A stretch of DNA of 64,000 nucleotides, taken from Clostridia bacterium. Lineage in GTDB: Bacteria; Bacillota; Clostridia; Oscillospirales; Acutalibacteraceae. The position numbers and the translations under genes are program-made. The notes below the pieces were generated by a model, which saw only the letters and a program-made list of their open reading frames with translations, ran no database searches and was not told where the DNA came from. Positions 11,553 through 12,798 of the stretch are shown piece by piece (position 1 is the first letter of the stretch; each line of letters opens with the position of its first letter). The stretch lies in the NCBI GenBank assembly GCA_017507805.1, contig JAFWAC010000025.1, positions 79,052 through 143,051 on the forward strand. Direction: 5' to 3'.

Positions 11553-11772
11553 AAATTATAGTTTGCCGCGCTAATTTAATTGACCTTTCGTAGGGGACGA
11601 TGCCTACATCGTCCCGTTTGGTTTCTGCAAATTTTGGAGGGACGATGTGGGCATCGTCCCCTACGAACAACCCCAATAAACTATAATTTAGCTGTATCTA
11701 CACCATTGTGGTATCGTGTTGTAATTTTGCAGAATAAAAAGGCGGACTGACCGCCGCGGCAAACTATAATTT
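11553..11772. repeat. Composite REP/MITE-like element with 18-bp terminal inverted repeats
   Basis: The 18-base AAATTATAGTTTGCCGCG at 11553-11570 is the exact reverse complement of 11755-11772, bounding 220 bases without a gene. Inside are two near-palindromic modules in opposite orientation (11589-11615 and 11639-11665), each built of GGGGACGATG facing CATCGTCCC. A third AAACTATAATTT lies at about 11678. A further copy of the module occurs at 46144-46169, so the module is dispersed. TATCCGCT occurs just outside both ends (11530-11537, 11772-11779). No transposase is present. Confidence 0.75.
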
Positions 11773-12344: not shown

Positions 12345-12746
12345 TTATCTCTTGGCTCCCTCTGATGAGGGAGCTGTCAGCGAAGCTGACTGAGGGAGAG
12401 ATTTTTTAACACTCAAATCTATATATTCACATACACCACTGAAATTACGGTCAATATCTAAATTGCAAATTCTTAAAACTGTTAAATTCATATTCTCTAA
12501 GTCTTTTGTGCGAATTTTATCTTTTTCTAATTGCTCTGAGGTGTAATGCCCGCCGCCATCAAGCTCAACAACAAGTCTTGCTTTAGCACAATAAAAGTCT
12601 ACAATATAATCGCCAATGGCTTTTTGTCTTTGAAATCTTATGGGGTAATTTCTTAAAAAAACATACCATAGTTTTCGTTCCCAAGGTGTTGGGTTTTTTC
12701 TTAAAGCTTTTGCAAGAGGGATATTAGATTTATTGTATTCTTTCAT
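12345..12746 (-). CDS. DUF559 (Vsr-like PD-(D/E)XK) nuclease carried in a palindrome-ended element
   Basis: The 133-residue protein belongs to the DUF559 group of small endonuclease-like proteins related to Vsr. Family blocks are NPTPWERKLW (residues about 19-28), FQRQKAIGDYIVDFYC (about 38-53, with candidate catalytic Asp), ARLVVELDGGGHY (about 56-68, with Glu/Asp) and VLRICNLDI (about 90-98). ATG 12746 was chosen because the GGAGGGAGA ribosome site (12759-12751) is correctly spaced; that site is itself part of the terminal repeat. The last residues (SLPQSASLTAPSSEGA) are translated from the opposite terminal repeat, and the stop lies nine bases beyond it. Function is unknown; possibilities are mobility of the element or DNA repair/defence. 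Confidence 0.85.
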   Translation of the reverse strand: MKEYNKSNIPLAKALRKNPTPWERKLWYVFLRNYPIRFQRQKAIGDYIVDFYCAKARLVVELDGGGHYTSEQLEKDKIRTKDLENMNLTVLRICNLDIDRNFSGVCEYIDLSVKKSLPQSASLTAPSSEGAKR

Positions 12747-12798
12747 TTTCTCTCCCTCCGTCACGCTACGCGTGCCACCTCCCTCGTCAGAGGGAGGC
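12354..12798 (-). mobile_element. DUF559 element with imperfect palindromic terminal repeats
   Basis: The 445-base unit is bounded on the plus strand by GGCTCCCTCTGATGAGGGAG at 12354-12373 and, in inverse orientation, by CTCCCTCGTCAGAGGGAGGC at 12779-12798. Each end has a second inner hairpin (GTCAGCGAAGCTGAC at 12376-12390; CACGCTACGCGTG near 12762-12774) and then GAGGGAGAGA facing the gene. Comparison with the gene-less paralogous site at 14516-14750 and with the short relative at 48271-48399 indicates a discrete insertion unit. I see no clear target-site duplication. Confidence 0.72.

Follow-up and report, generated by a model that had tools for sequence, protein, structure and literature searches.

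A 445-bp unit with a DUF559 nuclease gene between inverted hairpin ends looks like a minimal mobile element of Clostridia

Some families of palindromic repeats in bacterial genomes have been explained by RAYTs, and CGTC-tagged REPs have been described without a dedicated enzyme (PMC3733652). As for DUF559, a gene with this domain was assigned to the EDxHD homing family in 2022 (PMC9403480), and a 2026 paper links a Caulobacter DUF559 protein to Vsr-like repair (PMC12907096). Flanking palindromes are not mentioned for DUF559 genes in the excerpts of these two papers (PMC9403480, PMC12907096). Here, we describe a DUF559 gene of a Clostridia bacterium (GCA_017507805.1, contig JAFWAC010000025.1) that is boxed by two inverted hairpin ends. 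It lies in the window, the whole 64,000-nucleotide stretch of DNA that was analysed, and its features are collected in Table 1.

Table 1. Features of the DUF559 unit in the window.
Feature	Position	Strand	Description and basis
Whole unit: two inverted hairpin ends and one gene	12354..12798		445 bp; sequence and inverted repeats; layout shared by both further DUF559 genes in the genome
Distal (CTG-type) end	12354..12404	+	GG, outer palindrome, inner hairpin, tail; structural scan (locus L003); single-stranded DNA fold z -5.3
Gene-proximal (GTG-type) end	12749..12798	-	GC, outer palindrome, inner hairpin, tail GGAGGGAGAGA; structural scan (L003); single-stranded DNA fold z -4.2
DUF559 gene	12345..12746	-	133 aa from ATG; conserved residues; dN/dS of relatives

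A sequence-only reading of the window had described two palindromic ends converging on a single small gene at 12354..12798, and both the sequence and an inverted-repeat search agree with it to the nucleotide. The inverted arms pair 12356-12379 with 12773-12796, and 12387-12401 with 12749-12763. The outer palindrome of each end is 18 bp long (CTCCCTC-TGAY-GAGGGAG), and the tail of each end repeats the 3' arm of that palindrome (GAGGGAGAGA). In the distal end, GG (12354-12355) and the outer palindrome (12356-12373) are followed by the inner hairpin GTCAGC-GAA-GCTGAC (12376-12390) and a GAGGGAG tail from 12392, while in the gene-proximal end the outer palindrome spans 12779-12796 and GC occupies 12797-12798. 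As single-stranded DNA, both window ends and the two ends of locus L027 fold far more stably than shuffled sequences (z -4.2 to -6.7). A match to Rfam sR24 was below threshold (22.6 bits against a gathering score of 36) and was treated as chance.

The only gene inside the unit is DUF559, with no known transposase there. Its start is ATG 12746 with GGAGGGAG directly upstream, and the gene-proximal tail GGAGGGAGAGA also resembles a ribosome site. The earlier proposal of a ribosome site inside the promoter-proximal end is right for the window copy. An alternative GTG start further upstream (12764) would give 139 aa. Across loci, a ribosome-site-like sequence preceded 65 of 80 scored starts. At the other side, the distal end encodes residues SLPQSASLTAPSSEGAK, and the last residue and the stop extend beyond its edge. 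The stop codon fell inside the distal end at 37, beyond it at 24 and before it at 31 of the 92 loci scored. An end-encoded C-terminus, which had been read from the window alone, is thus common (61/92) and not universal: it holds for the window copy and fails at the 31 loci where the stop comes first. Read-through of the end may have produced it incidentally.

The window protein matched PF04480 (DUF559) in a Pfam profile search with an E value of 3.1e-26 and 91.8 bits against a cut-off of 20.6; it also matched PF18741 below its cut-off, and the same search gave no Y1_Tnp match in the boxed gene. When a profile of 32 relatives was compared with solved structures, it matched 3hrl (endonuclease-like, E 6.3e-25) and 3r3p (a mobile intron protein, E 1.2e-5). 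Residues D50, E61, D63, H67 and D76 are invariant in two alignments, of 32 and of 48 sequences, which suggests that the active site is intact; the motif name EDxHD follows PMC9403480. On the profile relationships and the intact acidic and histidine residues, the protein belongs with the Vsr/EDxHD-type PD-(D/E)XK nucleases. The DUF559 gene of the unit is under purifying selection, with a median dN/dS of 0.13 over 29 pairs of relatives (7 of 36 pairs were dropped because dS was undefined). PADLOC and PHROGs searches returned weak partial matches only.

The layout recurs within the source genome (G000), in which all three DUF559 matches are boxed by convergent palindromes 423-426 bp apart. The same genome contains six gene-less end pairs, 102-113 bp apart, as well as solo outer palindromes. 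Two of the solo palindromes, L078 and L082, read as left-right hybrids, the form expected from a deletion between GAGGGAG repeats. In the family set, 42 of 120 genomes had a DUF559 match. We used 56 family loci whose domain was intact or near-intact, leaving out three near-complete matches at contig edges and matches with E >1e-19, and the best 80 of 581 relatives from GTDB. An inverted flank score of at least 14 was reached by 36 of the 56 family loci versus 2 of 512 control intervals taken within those loci, and by 42 of the 78 GTDB loci with usable flanks (among the best 80 of 581) versus 3 of 987 control intervals from GTDB and viral loci.

We then relied on structure alone (palindrome, hairpin and repeated arm) at loci where both flanks were readable. 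Both ends were found at 22 of the 54 loci from the family and at 40 of the 77 from GTDB (among the best 80 of 581 relatives), versus 3 of 831 control intervals, where an upstream end was present in 47 and a downstream end in 53. When the scan was run in reversed orientation, both ends appeared at only 2/54 and 3/77 loci. Viral contigs contributed 11 DUF559 relatives, and one of the eight that were readable had both ends. Among palindromes of the CTCCCT form, to which this count is limited, the upstream end was of GTG type in 47 of 59 cases and the downstream end of CTG type in 53 of 58, so the unit is polar. The association between the ends and DUF559 is not chance; it is real, specific, polar and class-matched. 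The sequence-only reading had proposed looking for the ends in related genomes, and DUF559 is indeed flanked by at least one structural end at 42 of the 54 family loci and 66 of the 77 GTDB loci, the remainder having none. Within Clostridia, the ends are therefore neither unrelated to DUF559 genes in other genomes nor generally missing from them; elsewhere, inverted flanks often escaped detection, with scores below 14 at 9 of the 21 plasmid-record loci.

The ends also vary in step with the protein. We defined nine end classes (A to I) by regular expressions, giving two mixed loci their downstream class. The class was the same on both sides of 50 of the 52 genes with both sides labelled. On the DUF559 protein tree, the nine classes required 13 changes over 97 labelled tips, versus a mean of 57.6 and a minimum of 50 in 300 shuffles (12 changes over 96 tips with L050 left out). 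Labelled gene pairs within single genomes differed in class in 9 of 12 cases, which argues that end class is not simply a host signature. In the GTG-type inner hairpin, 78 distinct inserts pair at a mean of 5.9 of 7 positions versus 3.6 for cross-paired halves, and 61 CTG-type inserts pair at a mean of 5.1 versus 3.8. Pairing in the inner hairpin is thus kept while its sequence turns over. At the downstream end of L034, one hairpin end appears by eye to be lodged in the inner-hairpin loop of another. The proposal that ends and gene are co-adapted in the manner of REP/RAYT systems, a DUF559 protein taking the part of the tyrosine transposase, gains support from the agreement of class with clade, from gene-less inverted pairs and from a site found both filled and empty (see below). 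Mobilisation of the repeats by DUF559 had been put forward there as an inference and stays one.

The palindromes might instead serve regulation, termination or repair, with DUF559 as a resident nuclease that collects them by chance. Some DUF559 genes do have one end or none, and the Caulobacter DUF559 protein works in Vsr-like repair (PMC12907096). This is nevertheless highly improbable given the fixed polarity and spacing of the ends, their class matching with the protein, the DUF559 sites inside operons and the difference between filled and empty sites.

Gene-less copies of the ends were sought with exact motifs of two end classes in the 120 family genomes, which gave 120 and 51 sites in 17 and 15 genomes, respectively; control motifs read backwards had no sites in these genomes. 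Neighbouring ends within 600 bp formed convergent pairs of one CTG and one GTG end in 34 of 40 cases. Most close pairs are gene-less and approximately 99-136 bp apart. A spacing of 420-426 bp was seen in eight pairs, every one of which coincides with a DUF559 match (broken in one case). Two wider pairs (approximately 2.4 and 1.8 kb) were considered as carriers of cargo other than DUF559; by eye, they span apparent host genes and are thus read as separate copies. DUF559 was present in 19 of 27 motif-bearing genomes versus 23 of 93 others in the family, leaving 8 of 27 motif genomes without a DUF559 match. Within the genus, it was found in 15 of 16 genomes with at least four class A ends versus 22 of 54 others, and the link was weak at a threshold of at least one copy (21/32 versus 16/38, p 0.059).

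In G000 and G016, gene-less copies are often embedded centrally in larger inverted repeats, with which many of them may have spread. Three gene-less copies of G081 and one from each of other genomes have other flanks. At L072-L077 and L232-L239, the gene-less pairs are often central in the larger inverted repeats R1 and R3, as though they had landed at the tip of a hairpin or travelled with the repeats. In the window, R3-like repeat arms (AAATTATAGTTT / AAACTATAATTT; 11553-11772) adjoin the upstream neighbour of the unit and enclose another inverted repeat.

A comparison of filled and empty sites, also suggested by the sequence-only reading, was made by searching the joined flanks of eight elements against 70 genomes of the genus. 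One site was filled in G179 (L326) and G182 (L329) and empty in G134, G145 and G170, that is, in two species versus three. At the empty sites, the flanks align up to the junction, and what is missing is the element plus roughly 20 bp on each side; no palindrome is left at these three sites. No target-site duplication was noticed by eye at the printed boundaries. Further, the host repeat R2 holds a DUF559 unit at L195, L199, L200 and L204 (by eye also at L001 and L002), and elsewhere a shorter hairpin pair (e.g., L197, L201, and L203) or a single hybrid palindrome (L196). On these genome comparisons, mobility of the unit on an evolutionary time scale is well supported. Copies of R2, a multicopy host repeat of the genus, differ at one internal place, which can be occupied by a DUF559 unit, by shorter hairpin pairs, by a lone palindrome or by an open frame unrelated to these (G000:C7, G000:C18, L195-L208, L224-L231).

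Such sites also bear on a homing-type spread, in which DUF559 would cut a solo palindrome and the break would be repaired from a filled copy, thereby bringing in the boxed gene or a gene-less pair; the solo hybrids would then be targets and not scars. The profile match to 3r3p (E 1.2e-5) and the placement of a DUF559 gene among EDxHD homing genes (PMC9403480) are in line with it, as are solo palindromes (GGCTCC..GAGGGAGGC) at L196, which belongs to a host repeat with filled copies elsewhere, and at L078 and L082 in G000. However, the empty sites in G134, G145 and G170 carry no palindrome, and because both palindromes stay whole in a filled unit, the enzyme would have to discriminate to avoid cutting its own product. 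We regard homing as fairly unlikely.

A different host enzyme, such as a Y1 (IS200/RAYT-type) tyrosine transposase, might move the hairpin pairs, with DUF559 as cargo or accessory. Y1 genes do co-occur with the two scanned motifs, in 20 of 27 motif genomes versus 33 of 93 other family genomes, and among DUF559 genomes the motif was found in 17 of 22 with Y1 versus 2 of 20 without. In genomes lacking Y1, the association between DUF559 and the motifs is gone (DUF559 in 2 of 7 motif genomes versus 18 of 60), so that the two motifs track DUF559 only where a Y1 gene is also carried. Against this stands the absence of class A/B-like palindromes or both structural ends from all 19 Y1 loci examined, which were hand-chosen from the Y1 matches (L324 is at a contig edge), as well as the tracking of end class with DUF559 clade. 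DUF559 genomes without Y1 often carry end classes other than the two, of nine labelled, that were scanned, and a lineage effect is therefore a possible source of the co-occurrence. We rejected Y1 as the source of the palindromes on the 0/19 result, with its co-occurrence with the motifs left unexplained, and find it distinctly unlikely that DUF559 is a mere passenger. A two-enzyme system of DUF559 and Y1 is possible.

Beyond Clostridia, compact DUF559 genes are rare in a phylum sample, with a match below 1e-20 in 4 of 249 genomes, including the source genome. Among 21 plasmid-record loci, which were hand-chosen and not random (L294 was left out because its domain is within a large protein), 12 had a flank score of at least 14 and 9 fell below, versus 5 of 144 control intervals at or above it. 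DUF559 genes with inverted flanks were also seen in Sphingomonads and Deinococcus, some within operons. In plasmid records (L254, L290, and L256), they sit within core-metabolism operons, between transhydrogenase genes, between sufB and sufC and between paaD and paaZ; Deinococcus sp. QL22 has paaD-paaZ without a DUF559 gene. Several of the palindromes here are plain C/G-rich REP-like repeats, possibly frequent in the host genomes, and the evidence is thus weaker than in Clostridia. In Escherichia coli, at least 80% of the ycjD query was present in 3333 of 5426 genomes. The sapF-fabI gap holds, depending on the strain, ycjD, efflux genes or an SMI1/KNR4 gene (L303, L304, and L305; see also PMC12817139), and with such varied contents it offers no clean empty site. 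More broadly, and somewhat short of even odds, DUF559 might be the founding enzyme of a separate, cross-phylum class of minimal mobile DNA. In this class, a single Vsr-like nuclease would cut structured palindromes and so mobilise, with no transposase involved, both its own gene and swarms of REP-like hairpin pairs; the C/G-rich REP-like repeats near DUF559 in Clostridia, Sphingomonads, Deinococcus, rhizobia and cyanobacteria would descend from it.

For the unit itself, we favour, with a probability of about 0.6, a minimal REPIN/RAYT-like mobile element whose sole gene, a DUF559 nuclease, would act on the hairpin ends and mobilise them. Two inverted polar ends, usually GTG at the gene start and CTG at the gene end, would bracket the gene. 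The nuclease would most likely recognise its cognate outer palindrome and tail, presumably in hairpin or cruciform form, and nick or cut there. The bracketed DNA would then be excised or copied and joined elsewhere, probably by host replication or repair. Acting in trans, DUF559 would also move gene-less pairs (approximately 120-150 bp) of the same end class. This reading draws on the frequency of both ends, class matching, convergent pairs, the eight of eight pairs at 420-426 bp on DUF559 matches, the filled and empty site, copy number in the genus and the 3r3p match. DUF559 as mobiliser is opposed by the Y1-dependent motif link, the weak genus link at one or more copies, the motif genomes without DUF559 (8/27), the many gene-less copies in mid-repeat, the relatives with one end or none and the relative in Vsr-like repair (PMC12907096). 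If true, DUF559 would be a second, unrelated maker of REP-like repeats, a domain of unknown function would gain a role, and orphan palindromic repeats would gain a testable origin. A mobile element with a PD-(D/E)XK nuclease as its sole gene would also lengthen the list of DNA-moving chemistries, and the 445-bp unit with its matched ends is small enough for direct laboratory testing.

The titles and abstract openings searched, whose scope excludes most subscription papers and bioRxiv preprints, contained no report of DUF559 with palindromic ends, and the unit seems to represent a type of jumping element absent from that literature. E. coli YcjD belongs to the same family, PF04480 (PMC1189080), but its gene is flanked by a REP-like repeat on just one side. 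As with insertion sequences and their MITEs, short gene-less copies share the ends of a gene-bearing element, whereas here the parent gene is no known transposase and target duplication was not noticed by eye. EDxHD/Vsr-type homing endonucleases resemble the unit in nuclease fold family by profile (3r3p), in a small free-standing gene and in presence or absence at orthologous sites; the unit differs in its matched inverted hairpin ends, its gene-less copies, the lack of an intron or intein and the absence of a recognisable target from the empty sites found. The unit also resembles REPIN/REPtron systems with RAYT (TnpA-REP), which have short palindromic ends in inverted pairs with gene-less copies in the same genomes (PMC3116915, PMC8266576, PMC3733652), and a small gene matched to the class of its flanking palindromes. 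The gene of the unit, however, encodes a DUF559 nuclease and that of RAYT an HUH tyrosine transposase; neither of the two window ends, on which this comparison was made, has a GTAG tag; and the source genome has three closely similar boxed genes, whereas RAYTs are described as single copy. With the defining enzyme and the GTAG tag absent, the unit is not a member of REPIN/RAYT, and each of its ends has a further distinguishing build of two hairpins and a repeated arm.
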